A stretch of DNA of 64,000 bases, from NCBI GenBank assembly GCA_033675265.1, contig JAUJYZ010001050.1:130001-194000 (forward strand), given 5' to 3'. The DNA is from Actinostola sp. cb2023 (taxonomy: Eukaryota; Cnidaria; Anthozoa; Actiniaria; Actinostolidae). How positions within the stretch are numbered: position 1 is the stretch's first letter; every line of letters starts with the position of its first letter. The position numbers were made by a program, and so were the translations under genes. The notes below the pieces were generated by a model. The model did not search any database. It was not told the origin of the DNA and saw only the letters and a program-made list of their open reading frames with translations. Shown here piece by piece: positions 13,823 to 45,309 of this stretch.

Positions 13823-13864
13823 CCACTACTTCACACTGAAAACTTAGACTGGACCTACGGACAC

Positions 13865-15988: not shown

Positions 15989-16998
15989 CTATTCCTTTCT
16001 ACTCAGTACAGTTACACCACCAGCTCTCGAGCGCTTGGACAAAGACTCTCGTTGCTCGATGAGAGCAGCATTTCGACCCGGCACAGAGGCTAACCTCCGC
16101 ACACAACTACGCTCCTATCTTCTATTTTGCAACTACTTCAAACTGACCCCATTTCCAGCATCACCATATGTTTTTAGGTGCTTCATCCAACTTCTGTCTC
16201 GAACATTCAAGAGCCATCAATCCATCCGGAACTACGTCAGCGGAATCAAAACGTTTCATTCGTTACTTGGCCATAAAACATGTGCCTTCACGTCAATAGA
16301 CGTACTCCTCACTATGCGCGGCATAGCAAAACTTTCTACTCACCATCCTCGCCAGAAACTGCCAGTCACCCCTGATATGTTGCTCAACATGCACAAACAC
16401 CTGGACCTCGATGATTCTCTCGACACCACAGTCTACGCAGCCATTTTGATCATGTTTTTTTGCATTTCTCCGTCGATCAAACATTACCCCACGCTCCACA
16501 ACATCTTTTGACGTTCATCGAAACTTAACTCGACGGGATATTGTTGCCAATCCAGCCGGCCTTGGAGTCATAATCCGCTGGTCCAAAACTATTCAGTGCC
16601 ACGAGAGAGTGCTCACTATCCCCCTGACTGCCATCCCATCGTCACCATTGTGCCCAATAGCGGCTTACTCGAAAATGGTCCAACTAATTCCTGCAGCACC
16701 ACAGGACCCAGCTTTCGTCGTCCCGCACCGTGACAGTAAACTGCGCCCCTTAACACAAGCTCAGTTGGCCACTCGCTTCAAAGAACTGATATCTTCCATC
16801 GGCCTTGATCACAAGCTCTATTCCCTACATAGCCTGCGCCGAGGGGGAGCAACATTTGCAAGACTCGCTGGTGTGCCTACGGACCTTATAAAGATTCACG
16901 GTGACTGGAAATCCAACGCATATCAGTTGTATATCAAGGTCCCTTTTACGCAGCGCCTCAGTACGTCTCACTCAGGACATGGCAAGACTCATCCGTAA
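15900..16998 (+). pseudogene. DIRS-like tyrosine recombinase, one frameshift
   Basis: Would integrate the circular cDNA of the element. The N-terminal SAM-like core-binding region is at about 16060-16300 (RSYLLFCNYFKLTPFPASP, RNYVSGIKTFHSLLG). The catalytic domain begins before a run of seven T at 16455-16461. After that run the frame moves by one: the ORF as read ends at 16509-16511, while the adjacent frame carries FLRRSN, with the expected first catalytic Arg, just after the run. That frame continues to HSLRRGGATFARLAG (H-x-x-R) and IHGDWKSNAYQLY (His/Trp and the nucleophile Tyr), ending at TAA 16996-16998. All catalytic positions survive; only the T-run length is off. The true start is unclear because the frame opens with GTG inside the pol overlap. 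Confidence 0.8.
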
Positions 16999-24445: not shown

Positions 24446-24452
24446 TATATAA
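24446..24452 (+). promoter_or_regulatory. TATA box of peptide gene A
   Basis: TATATAA in ACCATATATAACACTCG, about 50 bases before the ATG. A start site about 25-30 bases downstream would leave a 5' UTR of roughly 25 bases. Confidence 0.6.
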
Positions 24453-24499: not shown

Positions 24500-24592
24500 A
24501 TGGTGCGCGGAATTTTCCTTGTGGCTCTCCTCTTTTTGGCGTACTTCACTACCCTTCCTGAGCAAGTCCAGGCACAATACAACATATTGAAG
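24500..24592 (+). CDS. Peptide gene A, exon 1 (signal peptide)
   Basis: 31 codons from ATG to the donor TTGAAG|GTACGG. Residues 3-20 are hydrophobic (GIFLVALLFLAYFTTLP), followed by EQVQA with a good signal-peptidase site after Ala25. The mature N terminus would be Gln26 (QYNILK), able to cyclise. The intron is phase 0. The exon joins in frame to 30089-30211, giving a 71-aa secreted peptide. The start is favoured by the TATA box at 24446 and by the signal sequence beginning exactly there; the longer open frame upstream has no ATG. Peptide gene B has the same exon plan and last codon. Not a family I recognise. Confidence 0.75.
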
Positions 24593-24615
24593 GTACGGTC
24601 TTATTACGGTATACG

Positions 24616-24856
24616 CAAAGGCCGGTTTACACTGGTGAGTTTGTCGCGCGATTCGTTTGTGAAATTGCGGCGAACTCGCGGTGATTTCACTGCATGCGAA
24701 TTTGCAGTCATTTCATAGTCAAAAGTTGTATGTTTAGACATTGAAATACTTGAACTAAATTTCGGAAAGTGACGACTTTCTTCGCGCTATTATCGCAGTG
24801 AATAAAATAGCTTATACACGCAGTCTATACAGAATCGACAGTGTAAACCAGCTTTG
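24616..24856. mobile_element. MITE in the peptide gene A intron
   Basis: CAAAGGCCGGTTTACACTG at the left faces CAGTGTAAACCAGCTTTG at the right, starting 23 bases after the splice donor. The interior is rich in CGCG motifs. No coding. Confidence 0.5.
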
Positions 24857-25894
24857 AAGAAGTCATATAGCCACGACGAGCTGTCCAGTTACGATAGTTA
24901 CGATCCTTGCGCGTGAGGGGAGTGGGCAAAGCCATGCGGTACGAGTCGTGATATGAGAGACCATGGAGCCACCATCAGTATCTGCAGGAGTTTCAAATAG
25001 TTTTTGGGTTTGATTTTTGTGGTCGGAAGTTATGAGAATTGGTTTTAGTACAGGGCGGTTCTCATTGACGCCGCCTGCTATTAAATCTCTTGACATTTCC
25101 TCAGCCAAAGCGTCTGTTTAGTTTCGTCGTTTGTAAACAACTGGAAACTTTTTATAAGTTAAATCACTTCCATTTCAGTGAGGAACAACTGAAGAACAAT
25201 ATATAGGCACTTCAGTTTTAAAAGTATTTACACTTGGTGGTTTACTGAAGTAAACGAGTTACCAAACCTTGGTAGAAATGAGTAAACATTTGTTTGTTGA
25301 GCGGTAATTTATGCCCCATTCACACCAAAACTTGTTTAGTTAAACTGGGTTTTTCTAGCTTCTATAATCTGAGAGCATCTAATTTCACAAGGATGAAACT
25401 ATCTGGTATTTATACTATGCAACACAAAGGAAAGTTTACCAGCAGTTTTGTGCCAAATGTTGCGTGGCGTTTGTAATTTTCTAAATCTGTTTCAGTTCAA
25501 CTACTTTAAAACATGTTTTAGCCTCGGTGTGAATTAGAAAGCGCTCAATTATAAACACGCCCTAGCTTGGTTACGCAATGCTGGATCAGTTACAACAGAC
25601 GAAAAATGCCCTACTACATTGCCTCTTGAGGCGGAATCAGCCTTACAAACTGTCTGAAATCGGCCCTACAACGTGGTCGCCGGAAGTTGCCAGTCAACGT
25701 GACGTCACACGCATACAAAACAATCCTTAATTCCGATTGGATAATTGAGGTCACGGTTGCGAAAATGGTTGATAAAAAAGTGTAAAGCGTTGCACGGTTT
25801 TAGTGTTGTACTAGTCTTACAGAATGCACACAGTCATCATATCCGTGAAACAAAATCAGAGAAGAATTGTTTAATTGTTCTTATTTATAGGCAA

Positions 25895-28800
25895 GTAGGT
25901 TGTTCTTATGGTGAAAGTAGTTTCTATTTAGTTAGACAAGTAGGTGATATCATTGAACCATAACATCATTCCTCACAGCCTCTTTTATTGTTCTTATGGT
26001 GAAATTAGTTTCTATTTAGTTAGACAAGTAGGTGATATCATTGAACCATAACATCATTCCTCACAGCCTCTTTTATTGTTCTTATGGTGAAATTAGTTTC
26101 TATTTAGTTAGACAAGTAGGTTGTATCATTGAACCATAACATCATTCCTCACAGCCTCTTTTATTGTTCTTATGGTGAAATTAGTTTCTATTTATAGTTA
26201 GACAAGTAGGTTGTATCATTGAACCATAACATCATTCCTCACAGCCTCTTTTATTGTTCTTATGGTGAAATTAGTTTCTATTTAGTTAGACAAGTAGGTG
26301 ATATCATTGAACCATAACATCATTCCTCACAGCCTCTTTTATTGTTCTTATGGTGAAATTAGTTTCTATTTAGTTAGACAAGTAGGTTGTATCATTGAAC
26401 CATAACATCATTCCTCACAGCCTCTTTTATTGTTCTTATGGTGAAAAGTAGTTTCTATTTAGTTAGACAAGTAGGTTGTATCATTGAACCATAACATCAT
26501 TCCTCACAGCCTCTTTTATTGTTCTTATGGTGAAATTAGTTTCTATTTAGTTAGACAAGTAGGTGATATCATTGAACCATAACATCATTCCTCACAGCCT
26601 CTTTTATTGTTCTTATGGTGAAATTAGTTTCTATTTAGTTAGACAAGTAGGTTGTATCATTGAACCATAACATCATTTTCTCACGGCCTCTTTTATTGTT
26701 CTTATGGTGAAAGTAGTTTCTATTTAGTTAGACAAGTAGGTTGTATCATTGAACCATAACATCATTCCTCACAGCCTCTTTTATTGTTCTTATGGTGAAA
26801 TTAGTTTCTATTTAGTTAGACAAGTAGGTTGTATCATTGAACCATAACATCATTCCTCACAGCCTCTTTTATTGTTCTTATGGTGAAAGTAGTTTCTATT
26901 TAGTTAGACAAGTAGGTGATATCATTGAACCATAACATCATTCCTCACAGCCTCTTTTATTGTTCTTATGGTGAAATTAGTTTCTATTTAGTTAGACAAG
27001 TAGGTTGTATCATTGAACCATAACATCATTCCTCACAGCCTCTTTTATTGTTCTTATGGTGAAATTAGTTTCTATTTAGTTAGACAAGTAGGTTGTATCA
27101 TTGAACCATAACATCATTCCTCACAGCCTCTTTTATTGTTCTTATGGTGAAATTAGTTTCTATTTAGTTAGACAAGTAGGTTGTATCATTGAACCATAAC
27201 ATCATTCCTCACAGCCTCTTTTATTGTTCTTATGGTGAAGTTAGTTTCTATTTAGTTAGACAAGTAGGTTGTATCATTGAACCATAACATCATTCCTCAC
27301 AGCCTCTTTTATTGTTCTTATGGTGAAAGTAGTTTCTATTTAGTTAGACAAGTAGGTGATATCATTGAACCATAACATCATTCCTCACAGCCTCTTTTAT
27401 TGTTCTTATGGTGAAATTAGTTTCTATTTAGTTAGACAAGTAGGTTGTATCATTGAACCATAACATCATTCCTCACAGCCTCTTTTATTGTTCTTATGGT
27501 GAAATTAGTTTCTATTTAGTTAGACAAGTAGGTGATATCATTGAACCATAACATCATTCCTCACAGCCTCTTTTATTGTTCTTATGGTGAAATTAGTTTC
27601 TATTTAGTTAGACAAGTAGGTTGTATCATTGAACCATAACATCATTCCTCACAGCCTCTTTTATTGTTCTTATGGTGAAGTTAGTTTCTATTTAGTTAGA
27701 CAAGTAGGTTGTATCATTGAACCATAACATCATTCCTCACAGCCTCTTTTATTGTTCTTATGGTGAAAGTAGTTTCTATTTAGTTAGACAAGTAGGTGAT
27801 ATCATTGAACCATAACATCATTCCTCACAGCCTCTTTTATTGTTCTTATGGTGAAATTAGTTTCTATTTAGTTAGACAAGTAGGTTGTATCATTGAACCA
27901 TAACATCATTCCTCACAGCCTCTTTTATTGTTCTTATGGTGAAATTAGTTTCTATTTAGTTAGACAAGTAGGTGATATCATTGAACCATAACATCATTCC
28001 TCACAGCCTCTTTTATTGTTCTTATGGTGAAATTAGTTTCTATTTAGTTAGACAAGTAGGTTGTATCATTGAACCATAACATCATTCCTCACAGCCTCTT
28101 TTATTGTTCTTATGGTGAAATTAGTTTCTATTTAGTTAGACAAGTAGGTTGTATCATTGAACCATAACATCATTCCTCACAGCCTCTTTTATTGTTCTTA
28201 TGGTGAAAGTAGTTTCTATTTAGTTAGACAAGTAGGTGATATCATTGAACCATAACATCATTCCTCACAGCCTCTTTTATTGTTCTTATGGTGAAATTAG
28301 TTTCTATTTAGTTAGACAAGTAGGTTATATCATTGAACCATAACATCATTCCTCACAGCCTCTTTTATTGTTCTTATGGTGAAATTAGTTTCTATTTAGT
28401 TAGACAAGTACATGTAGGTTGTATCATTGAACCATAACATCATTCCTCACAGCCTCTTTTATTGTTCTTATGGTGAAATTAGTTTCTATTTAGTTAGACA
28501 AGTAGGTTATATCATTGAACCATAACATCATTCCTCACAGCCTCTTTTATTGTTCTTATGGTGAAATTAGTTTCTATTTAGTTAGACAAGTAGGTGATAT
28601 CATTGAACCATAACATCATTCCTCACAGCCTCTTTTATTGTTCTTATGGTGAAATTAGTTTCTATTTAGTTAGACAAGTAGGTGATATCATTGAACCATA
28701 ACATCATTCCTCACAGCCTCTTTTATTGTTCTTATGGTGAAATTAGTTTCTATTTAGTTAGACAAGTAGGTTGTATCATTGAACCATAACATCATTCCTC

Positions 28801-29558
28801 ACAGCCTCTTTTATTGTTCTTATGGTGAAATTAGTTTCTATTTATAGTTAGACAAGTAGGTTGTATCATTGAACCATAACATCATTCCTCACAGCCTCTT
28901 TTATTGTTCTTATGGTGAAATTAGTTTCTATTTAGTTAGACATGTAGGTTGTATCATTGAACCATAACATCATTCCTCACAGCCTCTTTTATTGTTCTTA
29001 TGGTGAAATTAGTTTCTATTTAGTTAGACAAGTAGGTTGTATCATTGAACCATAACATCATTCCTCACAGCCTCTTTTATTGTTCTTATGGTGAAAGTAG
29101 TTTCTATTTAGTTAGACAAGTAGGTTATATCATTGAACCATAACATCATTCCTCACAGCCTCTTTTATTGTTCTTATGGTGAAATTAGTTTCTATTTAGT
29201 TAGACAAGTAGGTGATATCATTGAACCATAACATCATTCCTCACAGCCTCTTTTATTGTTCTTATGGTGAAATTAGTTTCTATTTAGTTAGACAAGTAGG
29301 TTGTATCATTGAACCATAACATCATTCCTCACAGCCTCTTTTATTGTTCTTATGGTGAAATTAGTTTCTATTTAGTTAGACAAGTAGGTTGTATCATTGA
29401 ACCATAACATCATTTCTCACGGCCTCTTTTATTGTTCTTATGGTGAAATTAGTTTCTATTTATTAGTTAGACAAGTAGGTGATATCATTGAATCATAACA
29501 TCATTTCTCACGGCCTCTTTTATTGTTCTTATGGTGAAATTAGTTTCTATTTAGTTGA
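25895..29558. repeat. 88-bp minisatellite, about 42 units, inside the peptide gene A intron
   Basis: The unit contains TTAGTTTCTATTTAGTTAGA, CAAGTAGGT, ATCATTGAACCATAACATCA, TTCCTCACAGCCTC and TTATTGTTCTTATGGTGAAA. Units differ mainly at two sites: GGTGATATC versus GGTTGTATC (or GGTTATATC), and GAAATTAG versus GAAAGTAG or GAAGTTAG. The array fills about two thirds of the 5,496-bp intron. A higher-order period of exactly 440 bp (five units) is visible in the middle. It ends where TTTAGTTGATGG diverges. Confidence 0.95.
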
Positions 29559-29669
29559 TGGTTTGGTAGCATTAAGTACGAACTATTTTGTGTCTAACCA
29601 TAGGTTTATTTTATAGTTAAATTCCGTAGGTTATATACATAGGATATTTTGACTTTGTAATGCGCAATA

Positions 29670-29810
29670 GAGTACAAACCATATTTCCGTGAAATACTAC
29701 TAATACTAAATAGTACTAAATAGTGTTATCTCCATTGTTTTCTATTGTTTCATCAGTGCTATTTAGTACTAATTAGTTAGTACTGTTTCACGGACATATG
29801 GTTTGCACTC
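29670..29810. mobile_element. MITE related to 49341-49491
   Basis: GAGTACAAACCATATTTCCG faces CGGACATATGGTTTGCACTC. The centre has ACTAAATAG repeats and TTGTTTTCTATTGTTTCAT. It shares this centre with the MITE at 49341-49491, which has different ends. Confidence 0.65.
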
Positions 29811-29811
29811 T

Positions 29812-29985
29812 CAGGGCCGTACATAACCCAAAATCCAAGGGGGGGGGGGGGGGGGGGGGGGGGCAGTACGTATACAACAGCAAAATATAAATAAAAATAG
29901 TACAGTTCTCAGTACTTTTAGGTATCTTTTTCGGGGGGGGGGGGGGGGCAACTGCTCCCCTGCCCCTGTGCTGTGTATGGCCCTG
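29812..29985. mobile_element. Short TIR element with two poly-G tracts
   Basis: CAGGGCCGTACATA at the left faces TGTATGGCCCTG at the right. Inside are G runs of about 25 and 17. It abuts the MITE at 29670-29810 with one base between. Confidence 0.5.
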
Positions 29986-30088
29986 ACTCTAGATCATTCA
30001 CATGCTTTTTGCGCAATATAAGAAATACTTTTTTTATTATTATTATTATTATTTTTTTATTTTTTCTAACACAAACTTTCGTTTCTAG

Positions 30089-30211
30089 TACGGGAGATCG
30101 CTTACTCTACGCAAGAGAGCTCGACTCGCTGACAAGGTTGTAGCTCATATATGCAAACTATCAAGAGAGCTTCACTGCGATGATCTGCAGAGGGCGGCAA
30201 TCGTGAAATAG
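30089..30211 (+). CDS. Peptide gene A, exon 2 (two-cysteine domain)
   Basis: Begins after the acceptor TTTCTAG at 30082-30088 and ends at TAG 30209-30211; 40 residues. It starts YGRSLTLRKRARLADKVV, then AHICKLSRELHCDDLQR, ending in Lys. The two cysteines have seven residues between them. Aligned with peptide gene B exon 2, it shares a basic RK stretch and IC-x-L-[SA]-R-x-L-x-C-[DE]-x-L. The spacing of Leu, Ile and Cys suggests a helix. RKR at mature residues about 13-15 is a possible prohormone-convertase site. An AATAAA follows at 30282. The product is probably secreted; a hormone-like or defence-like role is possible but not shown. Confidence 0.72.
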   Translation, partial: YGRSLTLRKRARLADKVVAHICKLSRELHCDDLQRAAIVK

Positions 30212-30281
30212 ATGAGCTCGATCGACCACGATATTATCACAGGGCAATATTGCTATAGACTGACAAAGACAGTTGTTGTGA

Positions 30282-30287
30282 AATAAA
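30282..30287 (+). promoter_or_regulatory. Polyadenylation signal of peptide gene A
   Basis: AATAAA about 70 bases after the stop codon, in GAAATAAAATAAAG. Confidence 0.65.
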
Positions 30288-30299
30288 ATAAAGTAAAAA

Positions 30300-31630
30300 A
30301 TATATAACCAAAACAGATTCTATGACTTCTGAAAATACTTGGTGATTTAGCTGTTAGAAACACTAGCTAAATATATACGCTATGTTCTTACGAAATGCTG
30401 TAATCTCCAGAGTAAGTTATCATTTAATTAACATGGAATCACTCCTGTAAAGAACAATAATGGTGTTTAAGTCTTGATGCAAAAATAAAAGATGTTGAAT
30501 GGAGTTCCAGACTCAGGGGGAGGTGGTAAAGGTTTTTACAGCTGGTACAGCAGAACAATCTACACTACCAGGGGCGTTACCAGGGGCCGGTTTGTCCAAC
30601 TGCATGATTTTAAAAATTCCCAACTAGACGCTTTTGTCAAGCGTTCACTCGTGCCCTGGTGCGATTGAATACCGGGATGCACTGCATCATGAAAGATGCA
30701 TACTAGTTGATATCAGTCATCAGTTATGGTTTATTATATTGTTCCTTACATTCGTGCTCGCAGGCTTAGATCGTGCAGTGTATATGAAAGCTTTGGTTCA
30801 AGACTGATTGAGATCTCTGTGGTAGTGTGGATTTCGGGAGGCCTGGCTCAGTTTCATTTTCGTTTCTAGAAAGCCTCCCTTTTCTACCTTGTTCTTCAAA
30901 TACTTGCTACAAATATAGATTGATAGTTATTTGAGGGTTTGAGCACAGCAACAACACACAACGGTAAACTTGTTTGAAAATAATAAAAATCAATAAATAA
31001 TGAATATGGCAATCAATACACAAAATAATGCAATAACGCAAATTCAATTCCAATTCATCTTCAAGTTAGCATGTACATGTATGTAAGCTTAATATTGATT
31101 GTGCTCGAGTCTCTAAGTTTTTGGGTAAGCTCCATGTGTCTCTGTTTCAGTTCGCGAATATCTTAGGCATGTCAGTTGACATCGAGCGAAGCCAGTCGCT
31201 ACGTAGCGACCATCACTTTGCTGATCTCTTCGTTCTTCACAGTTCCTTCACGAATGGAAGGGGGTGACGATCTCAAGTTTGAAGATCTTCTCGTCTTTGA
31301 CGACTACACACTAAACACAGACTATGACGAGTACTGGAATAGTGCAAGATTTCCCTCTAAAAATTCCACATGAAGCGCCTTGATCGTGTCTTGCGAAGCC
31401 ATTTTCCATGGTCTAGTTCCCAGTCCCACTCGATTGCAGATTTGTGTAGCCGAACTGACAACAACAAAAAACGAGCTGCGTTTTTCAACTCGTGCCGGCC
31501 AAAGGCCTGGGCACGAGTAATGACGTCCCAGTCCTCTGGTTCATTCACAAATCCCTTATCGTTTCCAAATACTGATGAAGCAGTGTTAATAAGTACAATT
31601 TAAGTTCTAGTAATATTAATGCAATCATTG
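30300..31630. other. Intergenic stretch, no supported gene
   Basis: A pyrimidine tract and CAG at 31150 resemble a splice acceptor, but the frames after it hit stops. The acidic open frame ending at 31373 (MEGGDDLKFEDLLVFDDYT) has no upstream exon that I can join. Confidence 0.35.
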
Positions 31631-31635
31631 CAATA

Positions 31636-32082
31636 GAATGGGCACTTTGATTGGCTGCATTAAAACAGTACGGGAACTTTGATTGGCTACATTAAAACAG
31701 TAAGGGCATTTTGATTGGCTACATTAAAACAGTACGGACACTTTGATTGGCTACATTAAAACAGTACGGGCACTTTGATTGGCTACATTAAAACAGTACG
31801 GGCACTTTGATTGGCTACATTAAAACAGTAAGGGCATTTTGATTGGCTACATTAAAACAGTACGGGCATTTTGATTGGCTACATTAAAACAGTAAGGGCA
31901 CTTTGATTGGCTGCATTAAAACAGTACGGGAACTTTGATTGGCTACATTAAAACAGTAAGGGCATTTTGATTGGCTACATTAAAACAGTACGGACACTTT
32001 GATTGGCTACATTAAAACAGTACGGGCATTTTGATTGGCTACATTAAAACAGTACGGGCATTTTGATTGGCTACATCATATC
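31636..32082. repeat. 32-bp tandem repeat array 1 (14 units, each with ATTGG)
   Basis: Unit: TACGGGCATTTTGATTGGCT plus ACATTAAAACAG. Every unit has GATTGGCT, the complement of a CCAAT box, repeating every 32 bp (about three helical turns). Confidence 0.95.
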
Positions 32083-34321
32083 AAACTTATGTCCTGCATC
32101 ATTGAACATTTGCTCCTGTTGGGATCCAGTATCACGCGGACAACGTTTTTTGTTAATGCTTTGTTTACTAATGCACGTGAGGCCCGATTGATCCAGCAAT
32201 TTGTTCACTATGACCGCTAAATAAAGCAGATTCGTACGTGACTGGTTTATCATTTCTGAATTCATATTTTTCCTTTGACAATGTGTAAATCAGGTAGCTA
32301 AAATATAAGAGAGGATGGAAAAGCTGCATATGTTTCCTCAACGGGAAAATATATCACAAATCCGAACTAACTTATTGATCTCGTGCGTGTAAATATTGGA
32401 AATTGCCTTCAAAAAACGTCCTTTCCGAGCCATAATTTATTTGCGAATTCGCCGGCCTATGTAGCTTCTACATACAGACCGAGATACAGAGCACCAATAT
32501 GATGTTCACAATTACCAAACAAAGAGTTTTAGATTTCATTTTGCCACCGCTTAATTAAGTTTAATATACATGTATTTTATATCAAAATGCGCGTACAATT
32601 ACAGAGCATTAGAATCCGGCGGTAGGTTTTTGATTGACACAATTCCCAAAGAATTCAGAGGGATTTTGTGTGCAGCGTATGTCACGCTCTCCTACATCTC
32701 TTCTGAGATTTCAGTTCGATTGACTTTGAAGAAACGGAAAATGCCACCTTCAAACCTCTTTATTTGTGCTTGAATTGCCAGCTTATTCATTCCTTACATA
32801 TTCGTCTTTGATATTCCGTTGGTAGGTTTTTTATTTGTATTTTAACAATGCAGTAAAAAGCAAAAATGTATCAAAATCATGCTGTTTTTCGCCTAAACAA
32901 GACTCGCCTCATCTGCATATGTGAAACAATGACCTTTTGTATAACATAAGTTTGATATGAAAACAGTAAGGGCATTTTGATTGGCTACATTAAAACAGTA
33001 CGGGAACTTTGATTGGCTACATTAAAACAGTAAGGGCATTTTGATTGGCTACATTAAAACAGTACGGACACTTTGATTGGCTACATTAAAACAGTACGGG
33101 CACTTTGATTGGCTACATTAAAACAGTACGGGCACTTTGATTGGCTACATTAAAACAGTAAGGGCATTTTGATTGGCTACATTAAAACAGTACGGGCATT
33201 TTGATTGGCTACATTAAAACAGTAAGGGCACTTTGATTGGCTGCATTAAAACAGTACGGGAACTTTGATTGGCTACATTAAAACAGTAAGGGCATTTTGA
33301 TTGGCTACATTAAAACAGTACGGACACTTTGATTGGCTACATTAAAACAGTACGGGCATTTTGATTGGCTACATTAAAACAGTACGGGCATTTTGATTGG
33401 CTACATCATATCAAACTTATGTCCTGCATCATTGAACATTTGCTCCTGTTGGGATCCAGTATCACGCGGACAACGTTTTTTGTTAATGCTTTGTTTACTA
33501 ATGCACGTGAGGCCCGATTGATCCAGCAATTTGTTCACTATGACCGCTAAATAAAGCAGATTCGTACGTGACTGGTTTATCATTTCTGAATTCATATTTT
33601 TCCTTTGACAATGTGTAAATCAGGTAGCTAAAATATAAGAGAGGATGGAAAAGCTGCATATGTTTCCTCAACGGGAAAATATATCACAAATCCGAACTAA
33701 CTTATTGATCTCGTGCGTGTAAATATTGGAAATTGCCTTCAAAAAACGTCCTTTCCGAGCCATAATTTATTTGCGAATTCGCCGGCCTATGTAGCTTCTA
33801 CATACAGACCGAGATACAGAGCACCAATATGATGTTCACAATTACCAAACAAAGAGTTTTAGATTTCATTTTGCCACCGCTTAATTAAGTTTAATATACA
33901 TGTATTTTATATCAAAATGCGCGTACAATTACAGAGCATTAGAATCCGGCGGTAGGTTTTTGATTGACACAATTCCCAAAGAATTCAGAGGGATTTTGTG
34001 TGCAGCGTATGTCACGCTCTCCTACATCTCTTCTGAGATTTCAGTTCGATTGACTTTGAAGAAACGGAAAATGCCACCTTCAAACCTCTTTATTTGTGCT
34101 TGAATTGCCAGCTTATTCATTCCTTACATATTCGTCTTTGATATTCCGTTGGTAGGTTTTTTATTTGTATTTTAACAATGCAGTAAAAAGCAAAAATGTA
34201 TCAAAATCATGCTGTTTTTCGCCTAAACAAGACTCGCCTCATCTGCATATGTGAAACAATGACCTTTTGTATAACATAAGTTTGATATGAAAACAGTAAG
34301 GGCATTTTGATTGGCTACATT
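31662..34321. repeat. Tandem duplication, two 1,330-bp copies
   Basis: Copy 1 is about 31662-32991 and copy 2 about 32992-34321. Everything I compared is identical at an offset of exactly 1,330: the 14 repeat units in the same variant order, then about 880 bp of unique sequence. The open frames at 32035/33365, 32071/33401 and 32570/33900 are exact pairs and have no recognisable domain. The copies are either a very recent duplication or an assembly duplication. Confidence 0.92.
32968..33412. repeat. 32-bp tandem repeat array 2 (14 units)
   Basis: Same unit as array 1; part of duplication copy 2 except at its left edge, where it begins directly after TTTGATATGAAAACAG. Confidence 0.95.
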
Positions 34322-34833
34322 AAAACAGTACGGGCATTTTGATTGGCTACATTAAAACAGTAAGGGCATTTTGATTGGCTACATTAAAACAGTAAGGGCA
34401 TTTTGATTGGCTACATTAAAACAGTAAGGGCATTTTGATTGGCTACATTAAAACAGTAAGGGCATTTTGATTAGCTACATTAAAACAGTAAGGGCATTTT
34501 GATTGGCTACATTAAAACAGTACGGACACTTTGATTGGCTACATTAAAACAGTACGGGCATTTTGATTGGCTACATTAAAACAGTACGGGCAAGTTTTGA
34601 TTGGCTACATTAAAACAGTACGGGCATTTTGATTGGCTACATTAAAACAGTACGGGCACTTTGATTGGCTACATTAAAACAGTACGGGCATTTTGATTGG
34701 CTACATTAAAACAGTACGGGCATTTTGATTGGCTACATTAAAACAGTAAGGGCATTTTGATTGGCTACATTAAAACAGTAAGGGCATTTTGATTGGCTAC
34801 ACTAAAACAGTACGGGCACTTTGATTGGGTATT
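34298..34833. repeat. 32-bp tandem repeat array 3 (17 units)
   Basis: Same unit, but with a different order of variants after the first unit, so it is not part of the perfect duplication. One unit has ATTAGCT instead of ATTGGCT and one carries a 3-base insertion. Confidence 0.95.
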
Positions 34834-34849
34834 TTTTAATTGTATTTGT

Positions 34850-37800
34850 ATTTAAGTAATTATTTATTTTATTTTTATTTTTATTATTATTATTATTTTT
34901 ATTTTTATTTTTATTTATTTATTTATTTACATCTTTACAGAAAACGGCGACAGACTCATTAGTTTTAACGTCTTCAGAAAACTGTTCTTGTTCAAAGTAT
35001 TCTAATTTGTCTTTGTGTTATTATCTGACGAGAAAGAAAATAGTTTTGTCACGTGGCTTGAAATGGAAACACATCGTGCGAGCTGACAAGGACTATACTT
35101 CACTATCTAGGAAGACAATATGTTCCGATGTCAACTTGTAGAGTATTACTAATTATAAACACACATTTGTCATAGCAGCTGGTGTAGGAATGACTCATTG
35201 ATTCACGTATTGGTTTGCTCACCAATTCATTCACTCATTCGATTGTTTATTCATTCAATAACTAGCGAGGTCATTCTTCACGCAACTAAGCTATTTATCG
35301 AGCCATGTATTCAACAATCAGTCATTCCTTATAGTCGAACTAGTTGGTGGAGTTTTTTTAAATTGAAAAACGAAGAAAGCTAAAGAGTTACAATAAGAAA
35401 ATCAAGCACCACAAATCGGACTATTGTTGTTGGGCTGCAAATTACTTTGTTTTCGCAATTTAAAATGGCTATATTACAACAATTATTGCATGAATTGGCG
35501 AACAAAATAAATCGTTTTTTGAGTGGTTTTCTTGAGGAATTCTTTCGATCAAGAATTACTATTTCAAACTAACAATGAATTAAACGGTAAACCTCTCCGT
35601 TTAATATGAGTGGTTTAGTATCCTACTGTGATGAATAGATGCTATGGGAAAAGAAAAGCCGAGGTGAAATAATTAGAAGGCGATCATCTGCCCGTTCAAG
35701 TTAGTATTACATGGGTTTATATGGACCTGAGGTTAATTAGCGTAACACATATACCACTACTTATATAGTGTGAAACGTACGTCGTGGCACGTACGTAGGC
35801 TGTTACAAATGCCAAGAAAACGCAGAACAAACATGCAAAACGACGCGTAACTATATATAAAGTTGTAAAGATCCGTTATGTAATAAGCGCCCGCCATGCA
35901 GTGGTACTTATATAGTGTTCCAAAAAACGTATTACATATTAATTAGACAATTTTTTGTAAATTGTAGCTAGCTACACAGAGGTTTCTGTGCATTTCTTTT
36001 TTCCGAGAGCTTTTCCAATACAAGAAACGCATAGAACTAAGAACTGAATACTGTAGCCATCTGTGAGCCGATCTGTGTACTTTGTGTTTCGAATTCTGTC
36101 TCCTTTTTTGAAGTTCTAGGTCTTTCAAAGAAGTAGCGCACAGAATACAGTTTGCATGTTGTATCAGCACAGAGTTAGATTATTAATAAACCCTAGAAAG
36201 ATCTAAGTTATATCGTGTCTGATTATAATCGAACTTTATTAGAAGTACCGCTGTGGGGTGGTTAAATTGGCAAAAAGTCGGTCGATCAAGGTAATTTTAA
36301 TTTCAACGAACAAAAAGAAATGTTAATTTATTATAAAGATAAGTCATTTATATCGCACGTTAATCGACATATTAGAAAAAGAAAACGAACCATTCAGAAA
36401 AAGCTAATTTAAGGCAAAAACGGAAAAGACGTTCAAGATGATTGAGTACTTACACCTAACACTTTTAACTAATCTGATCGATGATCCCCGTTCTTTCATC
36501 GTATTTTTTTCAGTTTTCACAAGCGTCATGCTTTTTATCCGATTCAGAATAATGAAGTAGTTCTCCTACTGCCATCGTTATTCCAATTGCTTTCTTTACA
36601 ATTGCTTTCTTTACAGCTTCAGCCCAGTATGTCTCCACAAAAGATTCAACGAATTTTCTCTAATATCTTTGATGTTTTATAACGTTTTCGTGATTAATTT
36701 TGCACTCTGTTCGTTGCTCGTTAGTACTATGTTCCTATTATCCTAACACTGATTTCTATCTCATCATCCCTTGCTTAGCCGATACCGTTATCGTTATCGC
36801 CGGGTTTTTTTCAATTATAAGGTCATCAATCGTGGCAACGCTAGTTGTCGGCTGTAGATAACAGACAATCAAACTGTGCTAACCGTTTCGCTGAAAGTGT
36901 GGCCATGTAAGTGACCTATACGAACAAAAATAAATGACAGTTGAGTTACTCTTCTTCTGCATAGTCGTTGCATACGTACTATGACTCAAGCGAACTCTCA
37001 AACAGGTTGACTGATACGGCTGCATCTGATCAAAACTCGCGTCTACGTCAGGCCAGGGCCGTCATTCTTATCTGGTAATCAAGGGAGGCAGTTCAACAAT
37101 AGTGGAGGCGTTTGTAATATCCTCACTTGAAGAGCCCACTCTCAGTTGGACGTTTCACGATCCTGCTTCACGGACTATTGAGCGTATTCTAATTTAGTCA
37201 CCCTATTGTCGCATTGGGCTGAAGAATTCAACAAGGTTTTCCTAGAGAATTACAAACGATAAATCTATCCATATAGATAGTGTCAGGCTTTTTTTTGGAA
37301 AGAAATGATCGTTTGCTGGCCTGTACAGCGCGCGGGCGGAAATCTGGAAACAGGAGCTTCACATGAGATCATCTGATATCGTAGATAAAGTTTAATAACT
37401 GAAGAGTGAAAAACTTTAATCAACGGAAATAACAGGTATATGGAGGACTATCAAAGAATGGACATGTTGATTAAATCCTTCTCAATACAAGAGGAACTAG
37501 GATGATTGCTAGTCTGTGAGTTCAATTTATGATCACTCAAATCCGACAGTCCGGCGATATCTGCGTCCTCAATAATAAACCTGATCATTGGAGCATGTGT
37601 TATTTAACGGAAAAACCAATCATGTCGATTTTTACTAGCTTCAAGCGATATGATTTCAGTTTGATGGACGTTAGTGATTAGCCTCGCGAATTCTATACTC
37701 TTCGAAAGCAAACGCGTAATCAGAGGCAACCAATAAGAGTTGTTATATAAAAAGCAGTTCTTATGATTTCATAGAAGAATTTCTGAAGAAAAGCTCCACT

Positions 37801-39240
37801 GTAACGTTTCCTATTAGGAAAGTTCGCGCGCCTCTCCACGCTTGTCCTATATAAACTTTTTGGCGGGAAATTGAACGCTTGATATTAGAAGAAAGATAAC
37901 AGGTGCTAGAAGGAACTAACAGCTCTTTCCGCCCATATGCTGATTGGGTGATCTTCAAAGAAGACCTGCGAAAAAATGCGTACTATTTTAAAGCATCCTT
38001 GGAGAGTGTTCTTAGTGATTTAGAAGCATTGCGCGCGCTTAGTTAACTATATGAAGTATGATTTTCAGAAGTTGAAACTACTCATAAAGACAAAATACTG
38101 ATCGGTATTTTTAATAGTTTTATCAGTGGAATCACTTAAAACACTGACGGTCATATAACAGATAATTAATCAAATATCGAGCATACTGTGTGTCGTTTGT
38201 CGGATGGGTTTCATAGGCACGGGGCGCGGGAACGTCCCTAATAGGAAACACAATGTGACTTTGTTTGTTGCCATGTATTTGAGCTATTAAACTAAATTGA
38301 ATTAGTCTCATGTGGAAATTTGATTTCTTAATAAAACACTGTGACACAACAAGCGTATAAACTCGTAATGAATGTCTGTAACAGATGGGTTCTAAACCCG
38401 AATATAACAAATGATAAAACGCTCAACATTTTAACGACAAAAGATAACATGTTGAATTTAACCATAAACAGAAGAAGTTAAACTACGTCTAAAGGTTCGC
38501 TGTTGAATTACTGCATTACCAGGTTAATAAAACGAAAGCTTTTCTAATAACTTCGCACTTATAATTCTCAAGAAGATAAAAGAACGTCAACTGTAGAACA
38601 TTCAGTTGACACTAAATAATGTGAATTGTGCTTGATATTGAGAATTAGTGTAGAGATCGAACTGATGAAACCTGTTGTTTATCTTAAGAGAGAGAGAGAT
38701 ATGCATTAATATGTGTGCATAGATCAAAAATACGTTAAAAGACTTTCAATTCTTGGTAAGCATCGTTAGATGGCTATTGAATTCGCTGCGATATATCGAA
38801 AAGACTGCTCGAGGTAATTCGCTGATACCAACTACGTTTAGAACACTTTACAATGAGATTATTATGAAGTGATCTCCTTCATCCCTACTCGATTTTCCAC
38901 TTATCGCTTAACTACTATAGATCAAGAAAATTATATAGACGATATCTCTGCTTGCATCGGGTCAAGGCACGCCTCAAGGCGCGTCAACGTACAAGACCCC
39001 ACAGTGAGTAAAGGAAATACATCCAAAAGATAATTACGTGATCTGATGTACAATCAGTACCACAATCGTAATCTCAAATAGTCGGCAAAAATCGCACAAA
39101 CGTAGTGAGAGCACGAGTTTTGTTTATAGATTTGTGCAACGGAGCACTCCTTCCTCGTGAAGTTCATTACCGGGTATTGGTATAGAGGGTTATTAAAACA
39201 ATCGAGGGTGCAGGTGGGTCGCCTCCGCGGGAGCTTGGCA
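34850..39240. other. 4.4-kb intergenic region, no gene recognised
   Basis: AT-rich, with (TTTA)n at about 34855-34930 and short TTCATTCA runs. Open frames are all under 100 codons and lack recognisable domains or plausible splice partners. It includes the promoter-proximal part of peptide gene B. Confidence 0.4.
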
Positions 39241-39249
39241 TCACAAGGA

Positions 39250-39257
39250 TATAAATA
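39250..39257 (+). promoter_or_regulatory. TATA box of peptide gene B
   Basis: TATAAATA in AAGGATATAAATATTTG, about 110 bases before the ATG at 39363. Confidence 0.65.
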
Positions 39258-39362
39258 TTTGACGCGCCACGTCAGTCATCCACTAAACACATCAACTGTA
39301 TCCCCAACAAGCAACTTTAGTTACTATTTGCCTAAGCACTGGACGAAGCTAGACGTTTTATC

Positions 39363-39500
39363 ATGAACACCAAGAAGCTCACTCTAGTCGTGCTTGTATC
39401 TACACTCATGGTGTTAGTGCGAGACAGCCAAGCCATGGTGACCGGTGTCCTCAGTGGAAAACGTGATGCAGATCAAACACACGGACAGCTAGCCCTTAAG
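39363..39500 (+). CDS. Peptide gene B, exon 1 (signal peptide and linker)
   Basis: 46 codons from ATG to CTTAAG|GTAAGC. Residues 6-19 are hydrophobic (LTLVVLVSTLMVLV) followed by RDSQA, so cleavage after Ala24 is likely. The mature start is MVTGVLSGKRDADQ. Gly-Lys-Arg at residues 32-34 is the classic signal for dibasic cleavage plus C-terminal amidation, so a short peptide (MVTGVLS-amide) could be released; that is inference. The intron is phase 0 and ends the exon on Lys, as in peptide gene A. It joins in frame to 45020-45127, giving 81 aa. Confidence 0.75.
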
Positions 39501-40011
39501 GTAAGCACGCGTTTTCGACTACTCTAGCTAGACTCAAGACCATGTCAAGCTGATATATCAATTGTGTTCATTAATACCAAACAAATAAGGCTTAGGGTGT
39601 AATACACTACTTTGGGATGATTTCATATATAGTGTAGATCAGTACATAAATGACCATTAGCTCCTAGATACACGTACATCTTTGGAACGAGCACCCCAGC
39701 TCAACAATGTCTTTCGTGTTTAAATAAAGTTATACAAAGTTATACGATCGCAAGCTTGCTTTAATACTGACTTGCGGCACAAGCTTCATGAATAAAAGCG
39801 CAAGTGGGCTCATATATGAAAACGAGGATCCGTACGTAATTTACGGTATGGACCTAGCACGAGTTAATTCCGATAACTGTGTATTGCATGTGTAGCTTTG
39901 TTTTCAATTTATAAGCGATTAGGTTCTTTCGCGGGATACGATATCTAAGTAATTATGGATATAGCAAGTGGGTGATTATTAAGTGTGATCTGACGACGAG
40001 ATAAATCTATA

Positions 40012-40132
40012 TGAATGAATGAATGAATGAATGAATGAATGGATGAATGAATGAATGAATGAATGAATGAATGAATGAATGAATGAATGAATGAATGAAT
40101 GAATGAATGAATGAATGAATGAATGAATGAAT
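40012..40132. repeat. (TGAA)n microsatellite in the peptide gene B intron
   Basis: About 30 units with one TGGA variant. The opposite strand reads as a Phe-Ile-His-Ser repeat and is not a gene. Confidence 0.95.
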
Positions 40133-41309
40133 AGACTTTATTTAATGAGGGTAGCACGTGACAGTTTGTACAAACTGATGACCCTGTGGCCCTCCAATAA
40201 CTATATTTAAGATATGATCGAAAAACTGTGTAAAATCGAATAGTCCACGTACCGAGAAGGCGGGTCCATAATGAATTTGTATTGTCCAATTAGTTTTATT
40301 GGTGCTAAATATTTAAAAAGGCAGTTGGACGAAAAACGTGTCCTTCAAGATTAATCCAAAACCACGTGTTTTTACAGGCGTAACCGAACTCTGGCGTGCA
40401 CTTGTCTAATGTTATGCCACCTAATAATTAAGATAGTTTCAGCGGAATTCTTGTTCGTTGTTCTGTAAGCCACACCACAGATCTTCCCGTATAATCTTAA
40501 TCTAACACAGTTTGCTTGAATAGAGGAATCAAAACTTACTCGCGGGTACGTGGAGAGAGACACAAAGAGAAAAGAAGCAAAATTAAAAGAAACAAGAAGA
40601 AGAGAAAAGAAGAACGAAAAAAAACTTGACCACATTTTCAAACATTCTTTAAAAAATGCATGCATGTTTCTATCACTTCCTTGTGACAGGAAAACAAAGC
40701 CAAATTATCAATGGTATTGCGGAGAAAATCACTTGGTATATCTTGAGAGCACAAACAGCACTGAACCGTTTCACGATGACTACAACTACCAGAATGCTTT
40801 GGGAATTTTCAGACCGATTTTCAGACTTTTATTATATCCCTTATGAGAATAGTAATTATCTAATTACTAGGTAATACTGAATAATCGAACATATCACATG
40901 TCTGATACGATAACCTATTGAACGAGTTATTAAAATGACAATCAATTTGGAACTGGTCTGAAGTCATAGAACTGTCAGACGGTCGTAAAACATCCAATAC
41001 CAGCGTGCAGGTGAACTTGACTCACTTCTGACTTGTACAAAATTAAATATCATGGGTGAACGAAAGAGAAAGAATGGAAAAATGATATTCAAAAGCGGAG
41101 AGAAAGAAAACAAACGATGATAGTAAGAGAGAAAGTGACTGAGAGGATGATGATATGACATAGATATCAGTTCTGACATAAATGCTCTATGATTGTGCTT
41201 TGCAACGAAGTGCTTTTTGTCGGACAGCTAATTATTTTAATAATTTTAAAAAGGCACGATTTGCAGCCACGCGGCTTACAATGTTATCATAAAAAGAGGA
41301 TAAAAAGAA

Positions 41310-41790
41310 AGAACCTAAACATAAGTGCAACCATCTCCAAGGCTTCTAAACGTTCTCCGTGTCCTACGCCATGGTGGCGTTCCAGTTGAAGATCTCCTGG
41401 CTATCTACTCCGCACCGTTACACGTTCCGTGTTGGACGGTACTGCTGTCGGTGGTGTGGCACCACGCCCTACCTTCCTTCCTACATCTCTGAACAGGTAT
41501 AACGTGTCCAGAAACGCGGTTTTAGAATTATCCTACAAGGACAGACCTACAATGATGCTCTAAAGATGTTGCCATAGTCCAGACAAAAGACGTTATGAAC
41601 CCGGTACTATTAAGAAAATTACTAAAGGGGGTCCTCTTTCGAGGCATCTTCCTGAAACCAGATCATCATGCGCTATCGTTCCTCAATATAATACTAGGAA
41701 CTCGAACTCTCGCACGTTGTTCAAATGCCGAACGGACACCCAAGGTTTTTCCCCAAGTTCAGAAATTTTGCTCAATTGAATGTGGGGTTT
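41310..41790 (+). pseudogene. Degenerate LINE reverse transcriptase C-terminal fragment
   Basis: Broken frames in order give KASKR, then GVPVEDLLAIY, VVWHHALPSFL / YLPSYISEQV, RVQKRGFRIILQG, QTYNDALKMLP, and after shifts LFRGIFLKPDHHAL and RTPKVFPQV. These are the post-catalytic blocks of jockey/CR1-like LINEs (GVP-EDL, RVQKRAxRII, YxDAL, KPDH). Several stops and frameshifts are present. It lies in the peptide gene B intron just before the 47-bp minisatellite. Confidence 0.75.
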
Positions 41791-41810
41791 TCAGACATAT
41801 CGTTTACGGG

Positions 41811-42950
41811 GAGTTATGGGACTGTTGTAGTGGACGCTGGTCTTGGATGTTTTACGGGGAGTTATGGGACTGTTGTAGTGGACGCTGGTCTTTGATGTTT
41901 GACGGGGAGTTATGAGACTGTTGTAGTGGACGCTGGTCTTGGATGTCTTACAGGGAGTTATGAGACTGTTGTAGTGGACGCTGGTCTTGGATGTCTTACA
42001 GGGAGTTATGGGACTGTTGTAGTGGACGCTGGTATTGGATGTTTACGAGGAGTTATGGAACTGTTGTAGTGACGCAGGTCTTGGATGTTTACGAGGAGTT
42101 AAGGGACTGTTATAGTAGACGCTGGTCTTGGATGTTTTACAGGGAGTTATGGGACTGTTGTAGTGGACGCTGGTCTTGGATGTTTTACAGGGAGTTATGG
42201 GACTGTTGTATAGTGGACGCTGGTCTTGGATGTCTTACGGGGAGTTATGGGACTGTTGTAGTGAACGCTGGTCTTGGATGTTTACGAGGAGTTATGGGAC
42301 TGTCAGTAGTGGACGATGGTCTTGGATGTTTTACAGGGAGTTATGGGACTGTTGTAGTGACGCTGGTCTTGGATGTTTTCAAGGAGTTATGGGACTGTTG
42401 TAGTGACGCTGGTCTTGGATGTTTTACAGGGAGTTATGGAACTGTTGTAGTGACGCTGGTATTGGATGTTTACGAGGAGTTATGGGACTGTTGTAGTGAC
42501 GCTGGTCTTGGATGTTTTCAAGGAGTTATGGGACTGTGTTGTAGTGGACGCTGGTCTTGGATTTTCATGCTACGTGGAGTTATGGGACTGTTGTAGTGGA
42601 CGCTGGGCTTAGATGTTTACGGGGAGTTATGGGACTGTTGTAGTGACGCTGGTCTTAGATTTTTACGGGGAGTTATGGGACTGTAATTGTAGTGGACGCT
42701 GGTCTTAGATGTTTACGGGGAGTTATGGGACTGTTGTAGTGATGCTGGTCTTAGATGTTTACGGGGAGTTATGGGACTGTTGTAGTGACGCTGGTCTTAG
42801 ATGTTTACGGGGAGTTATGGGACTGTTGTAGTGATGCTGGTCTTAGATGTTTACGGGGAGTTATGGGACTGTTGTAGTGACGCTGGTCTTAGATGTTTAC
42901 GGGGAGTTATGGGACTGTTGTAGTGGACGCTGGTCTTGGGTAGGGTTGTG
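41811..42950. repeat. Minisatellite of about 44-48 bp, about 24 units
   Basis: Unit: GGGGAGTTATGGGACTGTTG plus TAGTGGACGCTGGTCTTGGA and TGTTTTAC. Left-half units have TGTTTTACAG or TTACGAG joins; right-half units have TTTACGGG and GGTCTTAGA, so variants are spatially segregated. Confidence 0.95.
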
Positions 42951-43399
42951 GGAGTTTTGTAGTGTTGTAGTATAAATGCCCGCTTGTCCAAAGTAGGTGC
43001 ACTAAAATATGTTTCCCCATATTTACTGTAAATAGACAGAAATGGCGTCCCCTAAAACGGCCCCCCGCACTTCTCCATGCAACATGTTAGTTGTCTGTAC
43101 CCTAATATATTCGACAGATCGATTCACTGTCAGAAAGTACATTTGTATCTCATCCGTTTAGTAATGGAGAGTCATCATGTAAAAGTCAACGTCCGAGGCG
43201 TTGGGTAGCTTTGTTGATCACAAGTCAAAAGGTCTAATCCAGCAATCGTTGGCTGCAGACCTATGCCACAGATAGCCCACGAGCACTTGTGATGCATTCT
43301 CATTACGTAGAGTAACTCGATTGTCTCGCTTATTATAAATAATAATAAATAAATAAATAAATCACTTTTTTAACGTGTCATTGTATTTAGCAGTACATG

Positions 43400-44820
43400 C
43401 TAATTGGGGACACGACTCTCGCACTTCTTACTACATTCTATATTCTGTACACCCAACACTCATCTCACTAGTGGGGACACGACTCTCGCGCTCACTTCTT
43501 ACTACATTCTATTCTATACACCCAACACTCATCTCACTAGTGGGGACACAACTCATACTCACTTCTTACTACATTCTATATTCTACACACCCAACACTCA
43601 TCTCACTAGTGGGGACACGACTCTCGCGCTCACTTCTTACTACATTGTATATTCTGTACACCCAACACTCATCTCACTAGTGGGGACACGACTCTCGCGC
43701 TCACTTCTTACTACATTGTATATTCTGTACACCCAACACTCATCTCACTAGTGGGGACACGACTCTCGCGCTCACTTCTTACTACATTCTATTCTATACA
43801 CCCAACACTCATCTCACTAGTGGGGACACGACTCTCACACTCACTTCTTACTACATTGTATATTCTATACACCCAACACCCATCTCACTAGTGGGGACAC
43901 GACTCTGACACTCACTGCTTACTACGTTCTATATTCTGTACACCCAACACTCATCTCACTAGTGGGGACACGACTCTGACACTCACTGCTTACTACATTC
44001 TATATTCTGTACACCCAACACTCATCTCACTAGTGGGGACACGACTCTCACACTCACTTCTTATTACATTCTATATTCTGTACACCCAACACTCATCTCA
44101 CTAGTGGGGACACGACTCTCACACTCACTTCTTACTACATTCTATATTCTGTACACCCAACACTCATCTCACTAGTGGGGACACGACTCACACAATCACT
44201 TCTTACTACATTCTAATATTCTATACACCCAACACCCATCTCACTAGTGGGGACACGACTCTCATACTCACTGCTTACTACATTCTAATATTCTATACAC
44301 CCAACACCCATCTCACTAGTGGGGACACGACTCTCACACTCACTTCTTACTACATTCTATATTCTGTACACCCAACACTCATCTCACTAGTGGGGACACG
44401 ACTCTCACAATCACTTCTTACTACATTCTAATATTCTATACACCCAACACTCATCTCACTAGTGGGGACACGACTCTCACAATCACTTCTTACTACATTC
44501 TAATATTCTATACACCCAACACTCATCTCACTAGTGGGGACACGACTCTCACAATCACTTCTTACTACATTCTAATATTCTATACACCCAACACTCATCT
44601 CACTAGTGGGGACACGACTCTCACAATCACTTCTTACTACATTCTAATATTCTATACACCCAACACTCATCTCACTAGTGGGGACACGACTCTCACAATC
44701 ACTTCTTACTACATTCTATATTCTATACACCCAACACTCATCTCACTAGTGGGGACACGACTCTCACACTCACTTCTTACTACATTCTAATATTCTATAC
44801 ACCCAACACCCATCTCACTA
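43400..44820. repeat. Minisatellite of about 70 bp, about 20 units
   Basis: Unit: CTCACTAGTGGGGACACGAC, TCTCACACTCACTTCTTACT, ACATTCTATATTCTGTACAC, CCAACACTCAT. The left half is rich in CTCGCGCTC, the right half in CTCACAATC. It ends directly at the SINE (CTCACTAG|TTCGTTC). Confidence 0.95.
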
Positions 44821-44986
44821 GTTCGTTCTTATTGAGGGAGGAAAACCGGAGTACTCGGAGAAAAACCCTCGAAGCAAGGGAGAGAACGAACTGACAAACT
44901 CATGCAACTCACATGAAGCGCCCGGTCCAGGAGTTGAACCAGGCACCACAGTGGTGAGATGCGAGAGGCATAACCACTCGGCCACC
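44821..44986 (-). ncRNA. tRNA-derived SINE
   Basis: On the - strand the element starts GGTGGCCGAGTGGTTATGCC, with a pol III A box TGGCCGAGTGG, and has a B box GGTTCAACTCC about 35 bases on. This is the 5' half of a tRNA-like (Leu/Ser style) promoter. The body then has TCGAGGGTTTTTCTCCGAGT and ACTCCGGTTTTCCTCCCTCA, a tail also common to other invertebrate SINEs as far as I recall. It is not a functional tRNA because no complete cloverleaf follows. It lies 34 bases before exon 2 of peptide gene B, in antisense orientation. Confidence 0.75.
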
Positions 44987-45019
44987 TATAATTAAAATTA
45001 TATATGTTTTGTCTTTTAG

Positions 45020-45127
45020 AGAAAAGCACAAGAACGAGCGTCACGCATTTGTTCTCTTGCAAGGATTCTTCAGTGTGAAGGATTACTTGTAAAACAAGAT
45101 GCTTCTCAAGGTGTGAACAGCTACTAA
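45020..45127 (+). CDS. Peptide gene B, exon 2 (two-cysteine domain)
   Basis: Starts after the acceptor GTCTTTTAG (ending 45019) and ends at TAA 45125-45127; 35 residues. It reads RKAQERASRICSLARILQCE, then GLLVKQDASQ and a short tail. C-x7-C spacing and IC-x-L-A-R-x-L-x-C-E-x-L match exon 2 of peptide gene A. The intron sits at the same position relative to the basic stretch. Two such exons with matched motifs, phase, signal peptides and TATA boxes are hard to explain by chance. Function unknown; a secreted signalling peptide is the simplest idea. Confidence 0.74.
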   Translation, partial: RKAQERASRICSLARILQCEGLLVKQDASQGVNSY

Positions 45128-45303: not shown

Positions 45304-45309
45304 AATAAA
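45304..45309 (+). promoter_or_regulatory. Polyadenylation signal of peptide gene B
   Basis: AATAAA about 177 bases after the stop; a second one is at 45395-45400. Confidence 0.5.

Follow-up and report, generated by a model that had tools for sequence, protein, structure and literature searches.

The 64,000-nucleotide window analysed here (positions 130,001 to 194,000 of contig JAUJYZ010001050.1 from the sea anemone Actinostola sp. cb2023) contains two gene models, A and B, that read as candidate precursors of secreted peptides. Coordinates are counted from the first letter of the window, and a slash within a motif marks a splice or cleavage point. Both models had been proposed from the letters alone, in what we call the sequence-only reading, and when the sequence was re-read its exon coordinates, reading frame and phase-0 intron after a lysine codon held for each gene. 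The TATA-like boxes that it had assigned to the two genes are also present, and lend modest support, given that 232 of the window's 2248 ATGs have a TATAWA in that interval. The features of the two models are as follows.

Gene A:
24446-24451, plus strand: TATA-like box (TATATA), 54 nt upstream of the ATG.
24500-24592, plus strand: exon 1, with the signal peptide (24500-24574) and the first six mature residues; donor AAG/GTACGG.
24593-24634, plus strand: alternative in-frame extension of exon 1 by 14 codons; donor CTG/GTGAGT.
24593-30088, plus strand: intron A, 5496 bp.
30089-30211, plus strand: exon 2, 40 codons and a stop, with GR at 30092-30097, the tribasic RKR at 30110-30118 and the two-cysteine motif ICKLSRELHCDDL at 30149-30187.
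30282-30292, plus strand: two AATAAA poly(A) signals overlapping by one base, about 70 nt past the stop.
Gene B:
39250-39255, plus strand: TATA-like box (TATAAA), 113 nt upstream of the ATG.
39363-39500, plus strand: exon 1, with the signal peptide (39363-39434), a heptapeptide (39435-39455) and GKR (39456-39464); donor AAG/GTAAGC.
39501-45019, plus strand: intron B, 5519 bp.
45020-45127, plus strand: exon 2, 35 codons and a stop; RK completes a tribasic K/RK, and the two-cysteine motif ICSLARILQCEGL lies at 45047-45085.
45304-45309, plus strand: AATAAA poly(A) signal, 176 nt past the stop.

Once spliced, the models predict in-frame precursors of 71 aa (A) and 81 aa (B). Both junctions have GT/AG sites, are in phase 0 and follow an AAG (Lys) codon. 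The second exons lack an in-frame ATG, and on the upstream side the frame of each ends at the TAG in its own acceptor, so both need splicing. One or both models could be decayed, non-expressed pseudogene copies or chance gene-like patterns, a view that fits the large satellite-filled introns and the weak coding score of the second exons. We consider this improbable, as neither model contains a stop or frameshift and the first exons score far above simulated sequence.

To place the first exons in context, each of the 2251 ATGs on the two strands was examined for an in-frame phase-0 donor as well as for a hydrophobic core with a plausible cleavage site. Signal peptides were judged by the hydrophobic core and a simple small-residue cleavage rule rather than by a dedicated program, and the scores come from generic splice matrices and a hydropathy scale. 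The predicted cleavages are VQA/Q in A and SQA/M in B. With a donor score of at least 5, two of the 2251 ATGs pass, and they are those of A and B (A via a donor at 24634). A looser setting (donor at least 4, Kyte-Doolittle hydropathy at least 2.0) yields three candidates, the third being a weak one at 207. Among 100 simulated windows (third-order Markov), the loose setting gave a mean of 0.47 candidates, with two or more in 13 windows; the middle setting gave a mean of 0.17, with two or more in a single window; at the strength of A and B the mean was 0.02 and no window held two. The thresholds were set after A and B had been seen, which makes the simulation a strong result rather than a clean probability. 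As exons that combine a signal peptide with a phase-0 donor, the first exons of A and B are above chance. They share a strand, each is found 5' of its own second exon, and they are the only strong ones in the 64 kb, all of which supports two genes of one kind.

Behind the signal peptides, the two precursors present the same order of processing sites: seven residues, an amidation/cleavage signal, a tribasic site and a two-cysteine helix. Counted from the predicted signal-peptide cleavage, the amidation/cleavage signal begins at residue 8, as GR in A and GKR in B, and there is one such signal per precursor. The tribasic sites ahead of the helix are LTLRKR/A in A and LALKRK/A in B. The mature part starts with Q in A and with M in B. 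In A the processing signals depend on the splice, because QYNILK/Y-GR spans the junction. Post hoc shuffling of the mature sequences, which is independent of any similarity between the second exons, gave both precursors an amidation signal within residues 5-13 in 0.24% of draws. An amidation signal with a later tribasic site arose in 0.65% (A) and 0.66% (B) of shuffles (product 4e-5), whereas a tribasic run by itself turned up often (36% and 14%). The sequence-only reading made no mention of the signals at residue 8 or of the tribasic site and built on a C-x7-C domain; the amidated heptapeptide layout is the better functional lead.

This layout has precedents. Anthozoan precursors in which the signal sequence leads straight into a single amidated peptide are known from stony corals and sea anemones (PMC7523074), GKR, GRR and GR are processing sites in cnidarian precursors (PMC7523074, PMC6909153), and dibasic cleavage has been confirmed by mass spectrometry in Nematostella (PMC11087051). 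Like the Antho-RWamide, Antho-RNamide and Antho-RIamide preprohormones, A and B have a signal peptide followed by one short peptide and GR or GKR, in A only with the donor at 24592. The N-terminal Q of A has its counterpart in the RWamides of the single-copy precursors, which mostly begin with Q, and the presence of two genes recalls the several species that have two or more genes per peptide type (PMC7523074). The C-terminal ends differ, since A and B would yield KY-amide and LS-amide and contain no RWamide, RNamide, RIamide or KAamide motif. The strings "KYamide", "LKY" and "LSamide" are absent from the main text of PMC7523074, and "KYamide" and "LSamide" have no occurrence in the main texts of three papers, PMC7523074 among them, the only place where the heptapeptides were sought. 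No mention of a two-cysteine C-terminal helix like that predicted for A and B was found in PMC7523074, whose main text has 0 occurrences of the word "cysteine". Multi-copy cnidarian preprohormones contain at least three similar peptide copies with processing sites (PMC7523074), in contrast to the single amidation signal of A and of B.

We hypothesize that A and B are two precursors that would each release a heptapeptide amide and a helical two-cysteine peptide, a reading to which we give about an even chance. The signal peptide of exon 1 would direct the precursor to secretion, with one seven-residue peptide directly behind it. Ahead of GR, A would release (p)QYNILKY-amide, where (p)Q is glutamine or pyroglutamate, and ahead of GKR, B would release MVTGVLS-amide. 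A short linker and the tribasic convertase site would follow, and then the C-terminal peptide. After convertase cleavage the heptapeptide amide would serve as a receptor ligand; we propose this role because the layout with a single amidated peptide, the GKR, GRR and GR sites and dibasic cleavage are all documented in cnidarians. The helical peptide might be co-released or act as a sorting segment, its cysteines closing a turn or bridging two chains. The frames, splice signals, processing sites and helix prediction can be read from the sequence; that both genes are expressed and spliced, that the products are cleaved and amidated with their disulphides formed, and that they act on receptors is inferred. 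In this reading A and B, both on the plus strand, would probably be old tandem duplicates. The likelihoods that we attach to this and to the other explanations belong to readings that are not fully mutually exclusive.

Several results weigh against the two-product hypothesis, beginning with the splice sites of A. In B the donor (score 7.02) ranks within the top four of 3725 plus-strand GTs and the acceptor is at the 99th percentile. The donor of A at 24592 (score 4.22) is also at the 99th percentile, and its acceptor is mediocre, at the 90th percentile of AGs. Moreover, the sequence-only reading had ended exon 1 of A at 24592, and that donor is not unique: the second in-frame phase-0 donor, at 24634, scores 6.07 and would splice to exon 2 just as well, and its use would change the heptapeptide of A, which depends on 24592. 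The extension between the two (24593-24634) has a codon score of -0.20 per codon against +0.07 for exon 1A, which favours 24592 without settling the choice. On the peptide side, the two heptapeptides are unlike each other, and that of B starts with Met and so is without the pyroglutamate or Pro protection usual in cnidarians (PMC6909153). In anthozoan single-copy preprohormones a phenyllactyl precursor is a further form of N-terminal protection.

The evidence that joins the second exons to the first, and to each other, is mixed. The strict motif IC.L[SA]R.L.C[DE].L, a pattern written from these same two sequences, occurs twice in the six frames of the window, in exons 2A and 2B. The bare C-x3-R-x3-C turns up 18 times; one satellite array accounts for 7 of these, and 3 cross a stop. 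Compared with 2851 six-frame segments, exons 2A and 2B each have the other as best match, with a BLOSUM62 score of 44 against 39 (A) and 34 (B) for the runners-up, none of which stood out as a third gene copy in the window. Shuffles reached 44 in 5 of 20000 cases, and shuffles of the whole mature parts did as well in 13 of 20000. The score also tops the 450 pairs with an acceptor of at least 0.5 (next 36), a cut set just below the acceptor of A.

The remaining counts on the second exons fall on the opposing side. With the acceptor cut, 1 of 15 simulated 30-kb stretches reached at least 44 (at 45). Without it, five other pairs of 21306 score 44-47, mostly through runs of glycine or aromatic residues, and each of the three simulated stretches came to 44-50. 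As a control within the real window, the maxima of 28 interval pairs were headed by 291 and 169, both from identical repeat copies, followed by 53, the A/B pair at 44 and then 43; 3 of the 27 other pairs thus reach 44, two of them identical repeat copies. A gapped alignment that matches the tribasic sites puts the intron at different places in A and B, and its score gains nothing in significance (15 of 20000 shuffles). At 0.01 and -0.03 per codon, against a background mean of -0.12 (standard deviation 0.16), the second exons have unremarkable codon scores, which are matched or exceeded by 17% and 25% of 805 open segments (those behind an AG, excluding the two training open reading frames). Together this suggests that the exon-2 link and the homology of A and B are borderline as long as the acceptor cut is applied and fall to chance level when it is dropped. 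The proposal of a linked family with a C-x7-C domain is accordingly plausible but unproven: the motif is present at both places, while the similarity is borderline after correction for the search. Taken as gene models, two secreted-peptide genes of the same build have good support from their first exons, and their second exons are plausible.

Given these counts, the first exons could be real secreted exons that are not joined to the second exons named here, with A translated unspliced as 73 aa (24500-24718) or spliced elsewhere, and the exon-2 similarity a chance match of amphipathic helices. We regard this as unlikely. The open reading frame of exon 1A does run on unspliced to 24718, with AATAAA at 24801, and a score of 44 was matched in the simulations as described and, repeats aside, in 1 of 25 real interval pairs. 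Yet the stretch after donor A is non-coding-like, at -0.16 per codon, both exon-2 frames close exactly at the acceptor TAG and are followed by poly(A) signals, and the tribasic site recurs in both genes.

A further point against the two-product hypothesis is that no orthologue of A or B came from the protein, viral, genome-contig, Pfam, NCBIfam or PDB searches. In the protein database, a word search with B gave 1 candidate, with none at E ≤ 10, and A gave no candidate. The viral, genome-contig and PDB searches used B or the two-sequence A/B profile as query. Viral contigs held 14 (B) and 61 (profile) pattern-matching stretches and genome contigs 154 (B), with 0 confirmed in each case. In PDB, B found nothing by sequence and the exon-2 profile a best match at E 0.82, a chance level. 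The best Pfam match was FtsL at E 0.23, below the cut-off, and NCBIfam gave nothing convincing. Helix-motif strings of A and B had no literature match, and no paper was found that names these peptides. In prokaryote genome contigs the profile gave 31 stretches and 1 confirmed match, a 471-aa open reading frame (locus L001, 4746-6161), photolyase-like by eye, from a Porticoccus metagenome-assembled genome; it contains CSLARELQCDGL, near the motif of gene B. We take this bacterial frame, with its nearly identical 12-residue motif, to be a chance look-alike rather than a homologue. The match indicates that this type of helix motif arises easily, and as the sole confirmed one it also favours the view that the exons are not joined. 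As a control, an exon of the O-GlcNAc transferase (OGT) gene at 61760-62620 matched a database protein over its whole length at 90% identity, so a relative of the animal is present. The negatives for A and B are nevertheless weak, because a short spliced peptide is listed only if someone predicted it. The lack of relatives fits an unknown family, genes missed by annotation, fast evolution, wrong models or collections poor in animal sequence.

The C-terminal peptide after the tribasic site has 30 residues in A and 33 in B, with its two cysteines eight residues apart. AlphaFold models, both of moderate confidence, predict a helix over residues 2-19 of B, up to the second cysteine (mean predicted local distance difference test score, pLDDT, 69.7, from two sequences), and helices over residues 7-24 and 30-38 of A, interrupted between the cysteines (mean pLDDT 77.6, from one sequence). 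Each precursor has two cysteines only, as the sequence-only reading had noted, and the helix that it thought likely is predicted for both. A single straight helix would set the cysteines 80 degrees apart. In A, the predicted break between them makes a C-x7-C disulphide that closes a helical turn possible, and a bridge between chains would be the other option. In vertebrate melanin-concentrating hormone, a basic cleavage site precedes a C-terminal ring that has one disulphide and a central Arg. A and B would share such a ring, that of the hormone being one residue larger, and we see in this an analogy at most. Cnidarian and bilaterian peptide systems have been argued to be independent expansions (PMC11087051).

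Other small secreted precursors of cnidarians invite the same comparison, among them ShK and SA8 (PMC10210398), the coral SCRiPs (PMC2652719), and hydramacin and periculin of Hydra (PMC10945409). A and B differ from all of these in having two cysteines only and no Pfam or PDB match. The ShK, SCRiP and SA8 families carry six or more cysteines in a family framework. SA8 genes are like A and B in that they consist of a few short exons, have large introns (17 kb in one case) and occur as tandem paralogues (PMC10210398). The cyclic FRamides of cubozoans and scyphozoans (CxxxMCWFRamide) also have two cysteines, thought to form one ring; theirs is an N-terminal C-x4-C in a short peptide that is amidated, unlike the C-x7-C of A and B, which lies in a predicted helix and is not amidated (PMC6909153).

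In an alternative reading, activity would reside in the two-cysteine helix, a secreted peptide for defence or venom restricted to the lineage, and the N-terminal part would be a throw-away propeptide. It would act as a cationic amphipathic helix on membranes or on a receptor, and would be compatible with one precursor giving two active products. The net charge of the mature parts (A +7, B +4) agrees with this, as does the high hydrophobic moment of the amphipathic A helix (0.684, a value reached in 2.9% of shuffles). Hydra antimicrobial peptides typically come from paralogous genes, and neither periculins nor arminins occur outside the genus (PMC10945409). However, the moment of B is ordinary, being reached in 37% of shuffles, the peptide downstream of the tribasic site has a charge of only +2 (A) and +1 (B), and two cysteines contrast with the complex cysteine pattern of most Hydra antimicrobial peptides (PMC10945409). 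The shared GR/GKR at residue 8 would be left unexplained, and we think this alternative rather unlikely.

The introns had been described as 5.5 kb of repeats. The lengths are as claimed, and tandem arrays make up only 67% of intron A and 49% of intron B. Intron A contains 41 copies of an 88-bp unit (25900-29556, 97% match), wholly inside the intron, and intron B a 46-bp unit at 41802-42939 and a 71-bp unit at 43422-44822. No blastn match joins the two introns at E 0.01, and we treat their near-equal lengths as coincidence. The exons are not copies of repeats of the window, and there are no other copies of them within it. A tRNA-like sequence on the minus strand (44986-44920), with an A-box/B-box look by eye, ends 33 bp before the acceptor of exon 2B and is perhaps the head of a short interspersed nuclear element; ARAGORN and Rfam made no call on it. 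Scans of the window for tRNAs (bacterial settings) and with Rfam were empty at gathering thresholds, and three microRNA matches near 45.6 kb are far under gathering scores.

Elsewhere in the window, the minus strand carries the multi-exon OGT gene (61760-62620, Pfam Glyco_transf_41 at E 9.9e-125, and a neighbouring exon near 60955, recognised by eye) and an open reading frame with a CBM21 domain (Pfam CBM_21, 54126-54989), which we take to resemble glycogen-targeting phosphatase subunits. By inference the two mark an animal locus. A segment at 54870-55543, overlapping one end of the CBM21 frame, is duplicated 2.8 kb away at 57681-58328 with 87% identity. An inverted repeat of 843 bp (2753-3595 and 5731-6573, 99.6% identity) has a second inverted pair between its arms (3739-4430 and 5027-5747, 95%). 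Retroelement frames lie at 11642-16998, with an integrase H2C2 zinc finger at 11642-12160 and a reverse transcriptase at 13865-15988; the frames that follow look recombinase-like by eye, as in DIRS elements, and the one tested (15900-16511) is without a Pfam match. Three arrays of one 32-bp unit, about 1.3 kb apart, lie at 31640-34828, where open segments are repeated exactly 1330 bp apart (32826/34156 and 32478/33808).

It is doubtful, though conceivable, that A and B represent a new animal precursor family with two signals per chain, a heptapeptide amide and a helical peptide of 30-33 residues with the pattern IC-x-L-[SA]-R-x-L-x-C-[DE]-x-L. Script-based prediction in Nematostella has given 35 neuropeptide precursor genes (PMC12440616). 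With new precursors still being found in well-studied cnidarians, a further pair would be unsurprising in itself; the surprise would be a shared two-cysteine helix behind an amidated heptapeptide. If real, A and B would be two further peptide precursors with a dual-product layout, and would show that peptide hormones can escape annotation by way of tiny second exons behind satellite-rich introns of about 5.5 kb.

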